Shown: piece by piece, positions 26,132 through 36,748 of the stretch
Numbering within the stretch: position 1 is the first letter of the stretch
Layout: each line of letters starts with the position of its first letter
Source: Candidatus Poribacteria bacterium
GTDB lineage: Bacteria > Poribacteria > WGA-4E > WGA-3G
Assembly (NCBI GenBank): GCA_022821965.1
Contig: JAJECN010000015.1
Location: 304,785 to 368,784, forward strand
DNA length: 64,000 nt
Reading direction: 5' to 3'
Made by a program: the position numbers and the translations under genes
Notes under the pieces: generated by a model
Told to the model about the DNA's origin: nothing
Database searches by the model: none
What the model saw: only the letters and a program-made list of their open reading frames with translations

Positions 26132-27190
26132 TCACATAGTTTCGGATTTTACTATAAATTGGCGTAGAAAGTCCTCAACATCGTCTTTCAGTTCTATATC
26201 CACTTGCGAGCCTTCGGAATTTGAGTCACCTTGACCTAAAAAATCTTCGATATCGTTTTTTAGTTCTGCATTGCTTGCCTGTGTTGCGAATTTCAAAGCG
26301 GTTTGGAAGTCCTGTTTCGCCTCCGAAGTCCTGTTGAGAGCCCTCTTCGCTAATCCTCGACCGAAGTAAGCACTCGCATCATGCGGGTCCAGCCGAATGG
26401 CGGTATCATAGTCAACAGTTGCTGCTTTGTATTCACCTATATCAGCCTTTGCTATCGCACGATTGAAGTATGCAACAGCACCATCATCCTTACGGGCAAG
26501 TTCAATAGCAGTGTCGTAATCTGCAATCGCCGCTTTATGTTGACCGAGTTTGCTCTTGATGTTCCCTCGGTTGTAGTAGGCAGTTGCAGCACCCGAGTTC
26601 ATCTGAATAGTGGTATTGTAATCCACAATCGCTGCTTCGTATTCACCGAGATCTGCTTTAGATACGCCCCGACTGAAGTAGGCTTTGGTATACTTAGGAT
26701 TGAGTCGAATCGTGGTATCATAGTCCGTGATCGCCGCTTTGTGTTGATTGAGTTTTGCCTTTGCGACCCCTCGATTGTAATGGGCGTTGACGTAATTCGG
26801 TTTCAGCCCAATGGCGGTGTCATAGTCGGTGATTGCTTCCTTATATTCTCCAAGGTTTTTCTTTACAATCCCACGATTGTTGTAAGGTGTCCCCAAGCTC
26901 GGATCCAAGCGTATCGCGGTGTCATAGTCGGCGATTGCTCCTTGGTATCCACCGAGCCTTTTCTTTGCAACCCCCCGATTATTGTAGGCAACTGCGTAAT
27001 TGGGAGCCAGTCGGATGGCGGCGTTATACATCTCAATTGCCTCCATGTATTCACCGCTCTTTGCCTTTGCTAACCCACGGCTATTGTAGTCCTTAGCTTC
27101 CTCCGAGATTTCCTTTGAAGTTTTCTCAGATCCACAGCCCAAGCAAACGATGCACATCAGAAGCACGGTCAGCAATTTTATGTCTTTCAT
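26132..27190 (-). CDS. TPR-repeat lipoprotein
   Basis: A 352-residue lipoprotein (lipobox CLGC after MKDIKLLTVLLMCIV). Residues about 32-305 hold eight consecutive 34-residue tetratricopeptide repeats of the type AIADYDTAIRLDP...AYNNRGxAKxxLGEY. The repeats are so alike that a long antisense frame results. The last 45 residues contain two acidic copies of IELKDDVEDFL-like sequence. TPR arrays bind partner proteins; the lipid anchor places it at a membrane, probably facing the periplasm. It has no evident operon partner; the downstream dioxygenase gene is convergent. Confidence 0.9.
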   Translation of the reverse strand: MKDIKLLTVLLMCIVCLGCGSEKTSKEISEEAKDYNSRGLAKAKSGEYMEAIEMYNAAIRLAPNYAVAYNNRGVAKKRLGGYQGAIADYDTAIRLDPSLGTPYNNRGIVKKNLGEYKEAITDYDTAIGLKPNYVNAHYNRGVAKAKLNQHKAAITDYDTTIRLNPKYTKAYFSRGVSKADLGEYEAAIVDYNTTIQMNSGAATAYYNRGNIKSKLGQHKAAIADYDTAIELARKDDGAVAYFNRAIAKADIGEYKAATVDYDTAIRLDPHDASAYFGRGLAKRALNRTSEAKQDFQTALKFATQASNAELKNDIEDFLGQGDSNSEGSQVDIELKDDVEDFLRQFIVKSETM

Positions 27191-27394
27191 CGCGTTTCTC
27201 CTCCCTTCTATATTATTTAACCCAAGTTGCCACTTAATAAAATAGCCTTGTTTTTACCACAGAGTCAGCACCAGCGGGACGAACGGCGAAAAGAAATTGA
27301 GAAGAATTAAAATTCCACCTGATAGTATAACAAAAAGCAGCTTCTGCTTCATGGTGGATCGTTCATGTTTAGTATACGACTGGAAAGTTCCACG

Positions 27395-27422
27395 AGTAGG
27401 CAGGCTATTAAACCCGCCTACT
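27395..27422. repeat. GTAGG-type intergenic palindrome
   Basis: AGTAGGCAGG (27395-27404) and CCCGCCTACT (27413-27422) pair over 10 bp with one mismatch. It lies 11 bases downstream of the end of the isomerase-like gene. Confidence 0.5.
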
Positions 27423-27433
27423 AAATTCGTAAA

Positions 27434-28231
27434 TTACCGTGCGCCGCACGCTTGCAGACACGCTTGCATGTGTCCACGGGACTCTGCAGCAATCGTGCAG
27501 CACTGCTCTAAACTATATTCTTTTGCACCGATGACTTCAAGGTTCAACGGACCGGTATAGCCATTCTCATGCAGAACGCGGATGTAACCGACAAGATCGA
27601 TGTCCCCGCGTCCATTCGCCTGCAATTCAGGGGTACCGGGACCCCGTTCCATTCCCTTACAATCTCGAATATGCACGTGTTTGACACGTGAGACCACAGC
27701 CGCAATTGCTTCCACCGGATTTTCACCAGCACGATGGATATGCGACGGATCCATGTCAATTCCGAATGCTGGCGATGAGATCGCTTCCATGATGCGGAGT
27801 GTCGTCGGCGTGTTATAAATGCTGGCACCGACATGTGCCTTGACACAAAGCACCACACCGTAATGTTCTGCGCGCGCCGAAAGATTCCCCAACGAGTCAA
27901 CCACTTCGGGCCACGCGGATTCATCGTCAGAGGTGCCGCCAGGACCGCAGTTGATAATCGGAACGCCTATCTCAGCTGCCGCTTGAAATGCAAGTTCCAT
28001 TCTCTCTGGGTCGCGTGAGGGCTGCTCCATTGCTAACAGTTCCAGTTCGTACGTTTTTGCGAAACCTTTAATGTCGTTAGCAAGTTCTTGCCAGTTTGCG
28101 AGGACGAGGTGCTGGCTCATCCCGTCAATCGCAGAGAGTTCAATGCCATCGTAACCAGCCATAGCGATATGCTTGAAGGCGGTTTCCATATCGTAACCGC
28201 CGAACAACACTGAATTTGCTCCTAATTTCAA
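27434..28231 (-). CDS. Sugar-phosphate isomerase/epimerase-like TIM barrel
   Basis: A 265-residue protein of the xylose-isomerase-like TIM-barrel family (AP endonuclease 2 fold). Characteristic pieces are MAGYDGIELSA near the N-terminus, a metal-ligand region PIINCGPGG, FGIDMDPSHIHRAG with Asp/His ligands, HVHIRDCKG and GPLNLEVIG with the last Glu. Such proteins isomerise or epimerise sugars or polyols, or cleave keto-sugars, and often work with Gfo/Idh oxidoreductases. A Gfo/Idh gene lies 49 bases upstream on the same strand, which supports a joint sugar pathway; the substrate is unknown. Confidence 0.88.
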   Translation of the reverse strand: MKLGANSVLFGGYDMETAFKHIAMAGYDGIELSAIDGMSQHLVLANWQELANDIKGFAKTYELELLAMEQPSRDPERMELAFQAAAEIGVPIINCGPGGTSDDESAWPEVVDSLGNLSARAEHYGVVLCVKAHVGASIYNTPTTLRIMEAISSPAFGIDMDPSHIHRAGENPVEAIAAVVSRVKHVHIRDCKGMERGPGTPELQANGRGDIDLVGYIRVLHENGYTGPLNLEVIGAKEYSLEQCCTIAAESRGHMQACLQACGAR

Positions 28232-31986: not shown

Positions 31987-34431
31987 ATGGCTATTGAATA
32001 CGCGGGAGCTTACGATGCCTCGGCAATCCCGCCGGATGTTGCCCGCGAAATTGAAATTTATGAGATTCAACTTGATCGGTTCCAAGCCGGTCAAGTGGAA
32101 GAGGCAACCTTTACTGAATTTAGACTTCGGCGCGGCGTTTACGGACAGCGCGATGATAGATCGCAGATGATCCGTGTCAAGATCCCGTTCGGCGGGCTTA
32201 CAGCGGCACAACTCGAAATGCTCGCAGATGTTGCCGAAGAATTTTCGGATAACATCATTCACATTACGACGCGTCAAGATGTGCAATATCATTACGTAGA
32301 CATCAACACCACCGCTGAATTGATGCGTCGCCTCGCAAGCGTTGACATCACAACAAAAGAAGCGTGTGGCAATGTCGTGCGAAACGTCACAGCATGCCCT
32401 CTCAGTGGTGTGTGCAATGACGAGACGTTTGATGTAACACCCTACTCTAAGGCGTTGTCAGCGTTTCTTTTGGGACACCCGGATGCGGAGAACTTTGGTC
32501 GTAAGTTCAAAATCGCATTTTCCGGATGTGAAGAACACGCGTGCGGCTTGGCAAATATGCACGACATCGGTGCGGTTGCTGCGGTTAAAGAGGTGGACGG
32601 TGAAGTCAAACGCGGCTTCAAACTCTATGTTGGCGGCGGTCTCGGTGCAGTCCCGCATCAGGCAAAAATCTTTGACGATTTCGTTCCAGCAGAAGAACTC
32701 CTCCCAATTTCACAGTCAATCTGCAGAGTCTTCACCCGTTTAGGTGAACGCAGAAATCGGAATAAGGCACGTCTGAAGTTTGTTATTGCCAAATACGGCA
32801 TTGAGGAATTCCGTAAACAGGTGCTTGAAGATCGAGAAACACTACGGCATGACCCCCGATGGACGGCATATTTGGATAATTTAGATGCCTACGATGAGAG
32901 TCCGCTCAAGGCACCGACGCAGCTCAACGGCACCACGAAACCTGAAGGGTTTGAAGAGTGGTATCAATCTAATGTGCAGTTACAGAGTCAACCCGGTTAT
33001 GCTTTTGTAACGATTACGCTGCCGCTTGGCGATATTACCGCAGATCAGACGCGTGCTTTGGCAGATATTTCGCGAAAATACGTTAAAGACACCATCCGCG
33101 CCACAGTCGAGCAGAACATCGTTCTCCGCTGGGTAACGATGACGGATTTGCCAGCACTCTATCGTGAACTGAAAGAGATCGGTCTCGGCGACCCAGGGGC
33201 AGAGTCTATGGTTGATATTACCGCTTGCCCCGGTACTGACTCCTGCAAACTCGGTGTTTCTTCTTCACGGGGTCTGGCAGCGCACCTGAGAAGCCATTTC
33301 ATTGAAGCCGGTGTGCAGAATGAAATCAAAGACTTTCGGATTAAGATTAGCGGATGTCCTAACTCATGCGGACAGCACCACATCGCGAATATCGGCTTCT
33401 TCGGTTCCTCGCGCCGAATGGGTACACGTTCTGCGCCCTTCTATCAGGTCCTACTCGGTGGACACATGGTTGAAAACGCCAGTTCTTATGGACTTGCCAC
33501 TGGAAGAATCCACGGCAAATATATTCCGGCGTTCATCGAGGAACTAACTGGTAAGTACACGGCGGAACGAAATGAGGAGGAATCCTTTACCGATTACGTC
33601 GCACGGCTCGGTAAAGCGGAAATCAAAAATATCTTGTCCCAGTACGATCAAATTCCGTCCTACGAGGAAGCACCGGAATTCTATGTAGACACTGGCGACA
33701 CGAAAGATTACCAACTCAAAACCGGTGTCGGTGAGTGTGCTGGAGAGGTAATCGCACTTGTCTCCATGAAGTTGGAAGAAGCAGACCGCCTCATCTACGA
33801 ATCCGGGTTGAACTTGGAGAAGGGTGAATATCAGGATTCCGCGGAGTTGGCTTTTGATGCGATGATCAGAGCCGCAGACGGACTCTTGACGACGGTAGGT
33901 CTGCAGTATATCGACGACGCTACCACCGTTGAGGCATTCCGCACCCATTTCTTTGAACCCGGTAACTTCTTCCCCGGTTACGGCGCACACATCTTCAAGG
34001 CAACGGAAGAAGATGCTTCTACGTTTGACCATGAATTGGCACACCGTCGCGTTGAAGAAGCGACGCTCTTCGTCGAAGAATCGCATAATGTCTACGGACG
34101 GATGCGTATCAAGCAAGAGGAAGAAGAAAAGAGCCGTCGTAAAACACGTCGCTCGCGACCCGCACGGAAACCGAAGGTTGTCAAGGAGACGAAACCCGTT
34201 GAGGAAATCGTGGATAGCCTCGACCTCAAAGGTGTCGCCTGCCCGTTCAACTATGTCCAAGCAAAAGTCCGCTTGGAAACGATGGACCTCGGTCAACTCC
34301 TTGAAGTCACCATTGACGATGGTGAACCGATTGAAAATGTACCGAAGAGCCTTACCAATGATGGGCATGAGGTCGTTGACACCAAGAAGGTCGGAAAACA
34401 CTACCGCCTTACCATTCGGAAAGGTGAGTAA
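31987..34431 (+). CDS. Siroheme sulfite/nitrite reductase fused to HEPN-like and TusA-like domains
   Basis: An 814-residue protein. Residues about 1-550 are a two-half siroheme reductase, which makes sulfide from sulfite (or ammonia from nitrite). The second half has the standard cluster ligands, Cys414-x5-Cys420 and Cys457-x3-Cys461. The first half also carries paired cysteines (Cys137-x5-Cys143, Cys181-x4-Cys186), where most homologues have none. Residues about 580-700 are a helical HEPN-like bundle. After a basic linker (RRKTRRSRPARK), residues about 740-814 form a TusA-like domain (DLKGVACPFNY, Cys752), the family that passes persulfide sulfur; its usual CPxP reads CPFN. AAGGAGTACAGG precedes the ATG. 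The fusion with a sulfur-relay domain and the E1 gene downstream favour sulfite over nitrite. Confidence 0.88.
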   Translation: MAIEYAGAYDASAIPPDVAREIEIYEIQLDRFQAGQVEEATFTEFRLRRGVYGQRDDRSQMIRVKIPFGGLTAAQLEMLADVAEEFSDNIIHITTRQDVQYHYVDINTTAELMRRLASVDITTKEACGNVVRNVTACPLSGVCNDETFDVTPYSKALSAFLLGHPDAENFGRKFKIAFSGCEEHACGLANMHDIGAVAAVKEVDGEVKRGFKLYVGGGLGAVPHQAKIFDDFVPAEELLPISQSICRVFTRLGERRNRNKARLKFVIAKYGIEEFRKQVLEDRETLRHDPRWTAYLDNLDAYDESPLKAPTQLNGTTKPEGFEEWYQSNVQLQSQPGYAFVTITLPLGDITADQTRALADISRKYVKDTIRATVEQNIVLRWVTMTDLPALYRELKEIGLGDPGAESMVDITACPGTDSCKLGVSSSRGLAAHLRSHFIEAGVQNEIKDFRIKISGCPNSCGQHHIANIGFFGSSRRMGTRSAPFYQVLLGGHMVENASSYGLATGRIHGKYIPAFIEELTGKYTAERNEEESFTDYVARLGKAEIKNILSQYDQIPSYEEAPEFYVDTGDTKDYQLKTGVGECAGEVIALVSMKLEEADRLIYESGLNLEKGEYQDSAELAFDAMIRAADGLLTTVGLQYIDDATTVEAFRTHFFEPGNFFPGYGAHIFKATEEDASTFDHELAHRRVEEATLFVEESHNVYGRMRIKQEEEEKSRRKTRRSRPARKPKVVKETKPVEEIVDSLDLKGVACPFNYVQAKVRLETMDLGQLLEVTIDDGEPIENVPKSLTNDGHEVVDTKKVGKHYRLTIRKGE

Positions 34432-34472: not shown

Positions 34473-34522
34473 AGCGGTTGCCGCCCGCGCCCGAGACGGG
34501 CAGGGCAGGCAATCGCTTTTTT
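34473..34522 (+). terminator. Intrinsic terminator after the reductase gene
   Basis: AGCGGTTGCC pairs with GGCAATCGCT (one G-U), with an inner GCCCG/CGGGC stem, followed by TTTTTT. It separates the reductase from the downstream genes, so they are transcribed on their own. Confidence 0.8.
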
Positions 34523-34576
34523 ATACATCAGAGAACGCGCGAAAACTTATTGGTTGCAATACAAGGAGGCGCACTT

Positions 34577-34954
34577 ATGAGAAAAATGCGAACCTTGCGG
34601 GAGTACCTCATCGAGCGTCTTGGCGACAAGGAGAGGGCGATTGGCTACCTCCAAGCAATTCTCGACGATTACTATATCTGCGGGGGAGCTGCTGTGGTCA
34701 AGGATGCCCTTGAAACCGTTGTTAAAGCACAAGGTGGCGTTTCTAAAGTTGCCAAGCAGATTGATATGGATCCACAACTTCTTTCAAAGGTGCTATCCAA
34801 GGAAGATACGCCGCTTATTGACGCACTTGGAATCGTTCTTAAAGCACTCGGTTGTCAACTTTCAATCAAGCCGTTAGAAACCGAAAACCCTAACCTCGAA
34901 GCTGATCCTTTACAAACGGCACATGTAGCAGCGGAGCCAACCGCTTCACAATAA
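34577..34954 (+). CDS. HTH antitoxin-like DNA-binding protein (HigA/prophage-antidote type)
   Basis: A 125-residue protein. Residues about 25-95 match the addiction-module antidote family: AIGYLQAILDD followed by VVKAQGGVSKVAKQIDMDPQLLSKVLS, a helix-turn-helix, then ALGIVLKALGCQLSIKP. The C-terminal 25 residues are a disordered acidic tail. AAGGAGG lies 7 bases before the ATG at 34577, which is preferred over a longer frame starting at 34478 inside the terminator. These antidotes normally sit next to a RelE-type toxin; none is seen on either side. It could be an orphan or a local regulator of the sulfur cluster. Confidence 0.8.
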   Translation: MRKMRTLREYLIERLGDKERAIGYLQAILDDYYICGGAAVVKDALETVVKAQGGVSKVAKQIDMDPQLLSKVLSKEDTPLIDALGIVLKALGCQLSIKPLETENPNLEADPLQTAHVAAEPTASQ

Positions 34955-35044: not shown

Positions 35045-35290
35045 ATGGCAACAATCGTTAAACATAAAGAGACTGGCAAACGTTACTGTCTGCTCGGTGC
35101 GGGTTTTGGAGTCTTTCAGTCCTCGAAACCGAACGTCTTTCTCGGAAATTTGATGGCTGATGTGGAAGAAGGCGAGTACGCATTAGTTTGCGTCTGTAAT
35201 AGCAAAGGGGAGATTTTTTGGTTAGAGGCGACGCAGGTTACTGTTGTCAGTATTGATGGTCAAAACATCCAAGAACTCGCAGCGGAATAG
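35045..35290 (+). CDS. Small conserved-looking protein of the sulfur cluster
   Basis: An 81-residue protein I do not recognise. It begins MATIVKHKETGKRYCLLGAGFG and continues with alternating strand-like stretches (EGEYALVCVCNSKGEIFWLEATQVTVVSIDG), so a small beta barrel is likely. Three cysteines are present (RYC, VCVC). There is no signal peptide and no C-terminal Gly-Gly. TTACGGAGAAATAG precedes the ATG. A near-consensus promoter upstream and the short distance (71 bases) to the next gene suggest it opens the operon that ends with the E1 enzyme. Confidence 0.75.
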   Translation: MATIVKHKETGKRYCLLGAGFGVFQSSKPNVFLGNLMADVEEGEYALVCVCNSKGEIFWLEATQVTVVSIDGQNIQELAAE

Positions 35291-35361
35291 ATAATTTTCT
35301 TATAAGGATTGGCACTCTAACTTTCTTGTTATTCACTCACGAAAGGAAATTTTTTAGCAGA

Positions 35362-35940
35362 ATGGATCTACAACAGATTAACGTCAAGGTTTTCGCAACC
35401 GAAGATAGCAAAATTAACTATACCAACTTCATCAAAGTCTTTAACCGCTGGATGGAGGAGGCTGATTCAGATGACTATCTGAACTACGCCGATTATTCTC
35501 ATGTTGATGCCGGACCGGGTGTATTGTTGATTTTGAAGCAAGCCAACTATAGTATCGACAATGCTTACCATGAGCACGGTTTCCTCTACAACCGCAAGCA
35601 TGCAGTCGAAGGTGATAACGCTGATAAGATTCGCCAAGCACTCACAGAGGTGCTCTCCAAATGCGAACAGCTCGAGGCATCAGCGGAGTTGGAAAATGCA
35701 GTGCATTTCAGCGGCGCAAACCTCTTGTTTATGATAAATAACCGCCATATCGCACCGAATACACCGGAAGTTGCTGCATCCGTTGAGGCAGACCTGACAC
35801 CTGTCCTGCAACAGATGTACGGCGATAGCGATTTCACAGTGGAACGCACCTCCGAAGACGCACGCGAACGCTTCGCGCTACGAATCTCCGCGAATTCGGA
35901 TAAACCGATTTCAGAACTCCTCTCCAATCTCGGAGGCTAA
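35362..35940 (+). CDS. Uncharacterised protein ending in Gly-Gly, directly upstream of the E1 enzyme
   Basis: A 192-residue protein, cytoplasmic and without a known domain that I can name. Readable segments are INYTNFIKVFNRWMEE, YADYSHVDAGPGVLLI, YSIDNAYHEHGFLYNRK and INNRHIAPNT; I recall similar hypothetical proteins in several phyla. The C-terminus is SELLSNLGG. A terminal Gly-Gly is the mark of ThiS/MoaD/CysO-type sulfur carriers, which the E1 enzyme encoded next would activate. However, the two Gly codons (GGA GGC, 35932-35937) are also the GGAGG ribosome site of that gene. The ATG at 35362 has a weak site; a TTG at 35326 is an alternative. Confidence 0.75.
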   Translation: MDLQQINVKVFATEDSKINYTNFIKVFNRWMEEADSDDYLNYADYSHVDAGPGVLLILKQANYSIDNAYHEHGFLYNRKHAVEGDNADKIRQALTEVLSKCEQLEASAELENAVHFSGANLLFMINNRHIAPNTPEVAASVEADLTPVLQQMYGDSDFTVERTSEDARERFALRISANSDKPISELLSNLGG

Positions 35941-35941
35941 G

Positions 35942-36748
35942 ATGTTTAACTTCAGCAACGAACAGATTGAGCGCTATAGCCGACATATTATCCTCAAAGA
36001 GGTCGGTGGGATGGGGCAGACGAAGCTGCTGGAATCAAAAGTGCTGCTCATCGGTGCAGGAGGGCTTGGTTCTCCTGTTGGAGTTTATCTCGCAGCAGCT
36101 GGGGTTGGCACACTCGGCATTATTGACGACGATGTCGTTGATCTCAGCAATTTGCAACGCCAAATCTTGCACGGCACGAGTGACATCGGCATCCCGAAAA
36201 CGAAATCCGCAGAAGCCAGTATCGCAGAGATGAATCCCGATGTCAAGGTGGTTTCTTACAATGAACGCCTCACCTCGGAAAACGCCTTACAGATTCTGGA
36301 ACAATACGATCTGATTGTAGACGGGTGTGACAACATACCAACGCGTTACTTACTCAATGACGCATCCGTTATGTTAGGCAAACCGGTTGTGCATGGCAGC
36401 ATCTTCCAATTTGAAGGACGGGTGACTGTCCTCTATCCGGGCAAGGGACCCTGTTATCGATGCATCTATCCCGATCCACCACCACCCGGAATGGTCCCGA
36501 CCTGTCAAGAGGCAGGCGTTTTTGGGGTGTTGCCCGGTATTATTGGAACGATTCAAGCCGTTGAAGCGATTAAAGTCCTACTGGACATCGGCGACCCGTT
36601 AATCGGAAGCCTTCTGATTTTCGACGCGTTATCGATGGATTTCAAGCGACTGAAACTTCGTCGAGATAGAAACTGCCCGATGTGTGGTGAAAATCCGACA
36701 ATCCACGAGTTAATTGATTACGAAGAATTCTGTCAGGTTCAGTGGTAA
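35942..36748 (+). CDS. MoeB/ThiF/HesA-family E1-like adenylyltransferase
   Basis: A 268-residue E1-like enzyme, which adenylates the C-terminal glycine of sulfur-carrier proteins. It has the FSNEQIERYSRHI start, the nucleotide-binding GAGGLGSP, DDDVVDLSNLQRQ, the IVDGCDN motif, PTCQEAGVFGVLPG with the family's catalytic-type Cys, and the zinc pairs CYRC and CPMC. It has no C-terminal rhodanese domain, so a separate sulfur source is needed; the TusA-like domain of the reductase upstream could supply it. The ATG is 1 base after the upstream stop and uses GGAGG inside that gene. No ThiS or MoaD gene is seen in the window. Confidence 0.95.
   Translation: MFNFSNEQIERYSRHIILKEVGGMGQTKLLESKVLLIGAGGLGSPVGVYLAAAGVGTLGIIDDDVVDLSNLQRQILHGTSDIGIPKTKSAEASIAEMNPDVKVVSYNERLTSENALQILEQYDLIVDGCDNIPTRYLLNDASVMLGKPVVHGSIFQFEGRVTVLYPGKGPCYRCIYPDPPPPGMVPTCQEAGVFGVLPGIIGTIQAVEAIKVLLDIGDPLIGSLLIFDALSMDFKRLKLRRDRNCPMCGENPTIHELIDYEEFCQVQW

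Follow-up and report, generated by a model that had tools for sequence, protein, structure and literature searches.

A predicted sulfite reductase, a HEPN-fold helical bundle and a TusA-fold domain are joined in one chain of 814 residues encoded in the window, that is, the whole stretch of 64,000 nucleotides that was analysed, and we consider it quite likely that this fusion reduces sulfite for assimilation and is devoted to the protein-thiocarboxylate-dependent synthesis of cysteine (here) or of homocysteine (in many relatives). This kind of amino-acid synthesis is indicated by the partners of the fusion, which are an E1 enzyme, a ThiS-like carrier, a JAB peptidase, a cysteine synthase or O-acetylhomoserine (OAH) sulfhydrylase, and a PAPS reductase.

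An earlier note, made from the letters of the DNA, had described an 814-residue chain composed of a reductase, a HEPN-like part and a TusA-like part, and the open reading frame, its coordinates and its length are all as given there (Table 1). Pfam searches, which that note had proposed, rendered significant matches to NIR_SIR (E 4.1e-53) and NIR_SIR_ferr (E 5e-39), each in two stretches, and to TusA, whose match covers residues 745-812 with an E of 1.4e-16 and passes the gathering threshold, while no significant Pfam match to HEPN was found in the 814-aa protein. An AlphaFold2 model of the full chain, built from the aligned sequences of 61 fusions, had a mean pLDDT of 86.0 and a pTM of 0.77. 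Foldseek comparisons of this model paired the reductase with Mtb NirA (1zj8, E 1.6e-33), the middle part with the HEPN protein 2hsb, and the C-terminal part with TusA of E. coli (3lvj_C, TM 0.86 by target). Pfam, the models of the full chain and of the middle domain, and the fold matches agree, so that the three-domain reading is right, and the C-terminal 75 residues, for which another fold had been contemplated, belong to TusA. The basic linker mentioned in the earlier note is present here, but it is not a conserved trait, since the corresponding segment of the relatives comprises 15-45 residues and is often acidic; its pLDDT in the model falls below 50 at residues 709-737.

Table 1. Position in the window of the fusion gene, of its predicted domains and conserved residues, and of two downstream genes.
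Feature	Position (nt)	Strand	Basis and remarks
Predicted sulfite reductase-HEPN-TusA fusion protein	31987..34431	+	814 aa; ORF, Pfam, alignment and model
N-terminal half of siroheme reductase, ~residues 45-282	32119..32832	+	Pfam NIR_SIR 127-282; alignment to Mtb NirA 1zj8
N-half cysteine set C137/C143 + C181/C186, possible second Fe-S site	32395..32544	+	Alignment
K173-x-K175, sulfite-reductase-type anion-binding lysines	32503..32511	+	Lys at both positions in 61/61
C-terminal half of siroheme reductase, ~residues 333-543	32983..33615	+	Pfam: NIR_SIR_ferr 333-397; NIR_SIR, second stretch
[4Fe-4S]-siroheme ligands C414, C420, C457, C461 (CX5C...CX3C)	33226..33369	+	Conserved in 61/61
Invariant Glu583-Cys584, loop between reductase and HEPN bundle	33733..33738	+	61/61; low-confidence loop in model
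HEPN-fold helical bundle, ~residues 588-721, without RX4-6H nuclease motif	33748..34149	+	Models, fold comparison
Charged linker, ~residues 709-740	34111..34206	+	Low model confidence
TusA domain, residues 745-812, invariant Cys752 in CPxN motif	34219..34422	+	Pfam, Foldseek, alignment
204-aa conserved protein	35326..35940	+	Same-strand downstream neighbour of the fusion in 12 Poribacteria loci
E1-like adenylyltransferase (ThiF/MoeB) of 268 aa without rhodanese domain; putative partner	35942..36748	+	Pfam ThiF E 7.7e-84

The fusion is common across phyla and not an oddity of this genome. Nearly all the sampled relatives keep it, so that the possibility, considered in the earlier note, of its being missing from all of them does not hold; among 60 relatives it is nearly always present and in most of them full length, with an identity of 91-97% for members of the genus, 73-78% at the level of the order and 37-58% at that of the class. 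When GTDB genomes were scanned with the HEPN-TusA portion, 418 stretches were confirmed, of which the best 80 were inspected. These best 80 are distributed in about 20 named phyla, and in most of them the reductase lies in the same open reading frame, the exceptions being mostly cuts at contig ends. An assembly artefact or chance was rejected as an explanation, because the fusion is full length in most of the relatives and of the best 80 loci from other genomes. The fusion may also be of help in gene annotation: most Nitrospinota MAGs of classes other than Nitrospinia have been reported to lack Sir (PMC10839748), and the Nitrospinota contig JADGAW010000142.1 (locus L092) encodes a copy of the fusion truncated by the contig end.

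Mtb NirA, which is a sulfite reductase, shares with the fusion the two pseudo-symmetric halves, the cluster motif of the C-terminal half and the K-x-K sequence, and differs from it in having neither the HEPN and TusA extensions nor the cysteine set of the N-terminal half. Residues R63, R132, K173 and K175, which by comparison with known sulfite reductases make up the anion-site set, are unchanged in the 61 aligned members. The position of Lys175 is occupied by Lys in Mtb NirA and by Asn in tobacco nitrite reductase, of which an N226K mutant is available as a PDB entry. The genome contains only one other NIR_SIR protein, which bears K-x-N instead of K-x-K, for which plant nitrite reductase is a far better match (E 7.5e-98), and whose gene lies in a nitrate-type locus, next to genes for an MFS transporter and for an oxidoreductase of the molybdopterin type. 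Taking these features together, it is very likely that the fusion is a sulfite reductase and that the other NIR_SIR protein is the nitrite reductase of this genome. The fusion itself could have been taken for a nitrite reductase of nitrate assimilation, given that its best NCBIfam match, below the cut-off, is the NirA family and that its best PDB sequence matches carry the name of nitrite reductase. This was rejected, and we regard it as very improbable, because the discriminating position is Lys, not Asn, in 61/61 members, because another NIR_SIR protein already adjoins the nitrate-type genes, and because the neighbourhood of the fusion in the relatives is one of sulfur assimilation.

At the other end of the chain, PF01206 (TusA) was matched in all the 61 members, every one of which contains C752-P753 and has Asn755 in place of the second Pro of the CPxP motif. 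On the basis of these residues, the C-terminal domain is treated here as a CPxN-type TusA-fold domain, not as a canonical TusA. The fused domain is the only TusA found in this genome. At four loci from other genomes (L064, L084, L085 and L118) a separate TusA is encoded beside a DsrE-like gene in the operon, besides the fused TusA.

The middle domain was recognised mainly by its fold. The HEPN profile was matched in 5 of the 61 relatives, with a best E of 3.1e-4, and a profile of the domain searched against PDB sequences rendered weak matches only, HEPN among those; it was the fold comparison that settled the assignment, since the PDB entries that best matched the separately modelled domain (mean pLDDT 88.3) were proteins of the HEPN fold, 2hsb being the first of them (E 5.9e-4, TM 0.78 by target). 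An HEPN fold, together with a protein similar to addiction-module antidotes, with a helix-turn-helix (HTH), encoded directly downstream, could suggest that the bundle is an RNase or toxin-type module and the fusion a stress-coupled enzyme. We give this next to no credence and rejected it, because the RX4-6H motif was not found in the protein of the window and is matched as a string in only 9 of the 61 members, and because the HTH gene is not a recurrent neighbour of the fusion. The most likely role of the HEPN bundle would be to position the carrier arm or to mediate dimerisation, without nuclease activity.

The operon context was studied at 93 loci, with neighbour clusters that were named from sequence resemblance and not each by profile. 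An E1 (ThiF/MoeB) is found near the fusion at 48 of them, and at the remaining 45, some of which are affected by contig ends, there is no E1 within about 6.5 kb, which counts against the proposed pathway. A JAB peptidase is present at 39 loci, usually adjacent, an OAH sulfhydrylase-type PLP enzyme at 36, a cysteine synthase at 32, a ThiS-like carrier at 26 and a PAPS reductase at 25, and less frequent neighbours are Rrf2 (14), a CysN-like GTPase (13) and a siroheme methyltransferase (11). The recurrent order is CysK - ThiS-like carrier - O-acetylhomoserine sulfhydrylase - E1 - JAB - fusion - CysH (PAPS reductase). In most of the ThiS-like carriers encoded there, Gly-Gly is followed by further residues that would have to be trimmed off, which explains the presence of a trimming peptidase (JAB). 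The cysteine synthase of L062, L074, L093 and L126 starts with a ThiS-like stretch, apparently as a carrier-synthase fusion.

In this genome only the E1, whose gene lies 1.5 kb downstream, is near the fusion; the genes of the carrier, the JAB and the cysteine synthase lie on another contig, which also speaks against the proposed pathway, as the co-operonic evidence comes from the relatives. On contig C41, genes assigned by profile to cysteine synthase, PAPS reductase, carrier and JAB are contiguous, the carrier ending in GG-RNQS (Gly-Gly plus a tail) with the JAB adjacent, and ATP sulfurylase is encoded on contig C10. The 204-aa protein, for which neither Pfam nor NCBIfam gave a significant match, is encoded directly before the E1 in several Poribacteria loci. 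Between the fusion and this gene the window contains, 47 bp after the fusion, the gene of the HTH protein (positions 34478-34954; 158 aa, N-terminal start uncertain), which weakly matches the addiction-module antidote HI1420, and an 81-aa ORF (35045-35290) with no Pfam or NCBIfam match. Elsewhere in the genome (G000), a second JAB is found beside another ThiF-family protein as a separate E1-JAB pair (contig C48, ~26485-27656), and a second MoeB-like E1 is located at 174866-175570 of contig C32, with one in-frame TGA in the match.

This operon type, which occurs in about twenty bacterial phyla, probably serves to charge a small protein similar to ubiquitin with sulfur, from which cysteine or homocysteine would be made. 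From the domains, the conserved residues and the co-occurring genes, which derive from sequence and context, we infer the activity, the flow of the pathway and every sulfur-transfer step as follows. ATP sulfurylase and PAPS reductase would convert sulfate to sulfite, the siroheme half of the fusion would reduce the sulfite, and the attached TusA would catch the reduced sulfur on Cys752, perhaps via Cys584 first. The JAB would trim the tail of the ThiS/MoaD-like carrier, whose C-terminal glycine would then be adenylated by the E1, and TusA would give the sulfur to the carrier adenylate, forming the thiocarboxylate. Finally, the PLP enzyme would add the thiocarboxylate to activated serine or homoserine, and the JAB would free the amino acid. 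A direct transfer of the product from the reductase to the carrier fused to it, as the earlier note had suggested, is plausible and in line with the invariant cysteine of TusA and the operon context, and the likely gain of the fusion is that reduced sulfur would reach the E1-carrier complex without diffusing away.

It could also be the case that the fusion reduces sulfite for assimilation in the ordinary way and lets the sulfide go free, TusA having only a docking or regulatory function or feeding other sulfur needs, such as tRNA thiolation and cofactors. The reductase half is indeed complete and resembles Mtb NirA, and in some relatives the operon encodes a further, free-standing TusA next to DsrE. 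On the other hand, the invariance of Cys752 and Glu583-Cys584 in 61/61 members, and the maintenance of the fusion across about 20 phyla in the best 80 of 418 stretches, would not be expected for a passive domain, and we find this explanation improbable. Within the reading of a dedicated assimilatory reductase, the fact that both Cys584 and Cys752 are invariant favours, without proving it, a covalent sulfur-transfer step, in which a relay would run from the siroheme to Cys584 and then to Cys752. It is possible, although we put it forward only tentatively, that the relay is intramolecular throughout, the sulfur of partly reduced, siroheme-bound sulfite passing to Cys584 in a mobile loop, much as DsrC accepts it from DsrAB, then to Cys752 and to the adenylated carrier with no free sulfide, and that half of the family has in addition a second Fe-S site in the N-terminal half. 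Against such a relay, free sulfide from the reductase could serve the pathway without any covalent hand-over.

The operon context of the fusion, judged by gene content, matches class 4e among the sulfur operons of Iyer, Burroughs and Aravind (2006), for which the parts of the paper available to us describe an E1 without rhodanese, with SirA/TusA expected as a stand-in (PMC1779556). Common to both are a ThiS/MoaD-like carrier, a JAB, a rhodanese-less E1, SirA/TusA, PAPS reductase, sulfite reductase and O-acetylhomoserine sulfhydrylase, whereas SirA and sulfite reductase are separate items in those parts, which mention a ThiS-sulfite reductase fusion and not a reductase-HEPN-TusA one (PMC1779556). 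An earlier description of the latter was not found in the open-access literature, in the portions available, a scope outside which most subscription papers fall. The operon class is, then, already known, and what appears to be new is the union of sulfite reductase and TusA in one chain with HEPN between them. If our proposal is true, a sulfite reductase and a sulfur donor would have been identified for a widespread and little-studied route to cysteine and methionine.

Three other systems can be compared. In DsrAB-DsrC, a sulfite reductase hands sulfur to a protein cysteine, of which the fusion would be, if the proposal is true, an assimilatory counterpart; DsrC is, however, a separate and unrelated protein, whereas the carrier here would be the attached TusA. 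The recurrent gene order at the 93 loci agrees with the other two, which are protein-thiocarboxylate pathways. The CysO/CysM/Mec+ cysteine pathway of Mycobacterium is a protein-thiocarboxylate route with a carrier, a cysteine synthase and a JAB, the three of which are also encoded on contig C41, and we know of no sulfite reductase-TusA fusion in it. The HcyS/HcyD/HcyF/MetY methionine pathway of Wolinella succinogenes was described by Krishnamoorthy and Begley in 2011; the sulfur donor there was reportedly bisulfide made by Sir, with no role of TusA known to us, which counts against a hand-over through TusA. Its genes encode a carrier, a JAB, an E1, a PLP sulfhydrylase and a sulfite reductase, a set common to the fusion operons, and it differs in using MetY, the cluster of this genome containing a cysteine synthase. 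The protein-thiocarboxylate methionine pathway of W. succinogenes is known biochemically, as cited in PMC6271081 and PMC5764234.

The cysteine set of the N-terminal half is a variable trait of the family, with all four residues in 31 of the 61 members, none in 28 and a mixed pattern in 2. Its spacing is CX5C plus CX4C here, and CX3C in most of the relatives having the set. On the tree, its distribution needs 2 to 3 changes, versus about 20 for shuffled labels. The simplest reading of the alignment is that these cysteines would constitute a second Fe-S site, and their presence or loss in blocks bears on the divergence of the halves of siroheme reductases after duplication. A nitrite reductase with three of the four N-half cysteines (by inspection) is encoded in L042 (184-5465), a likely nitrate assimilation locus that also contains genes for an MFS transporter and a molybdopterin-type oxidoreductase.
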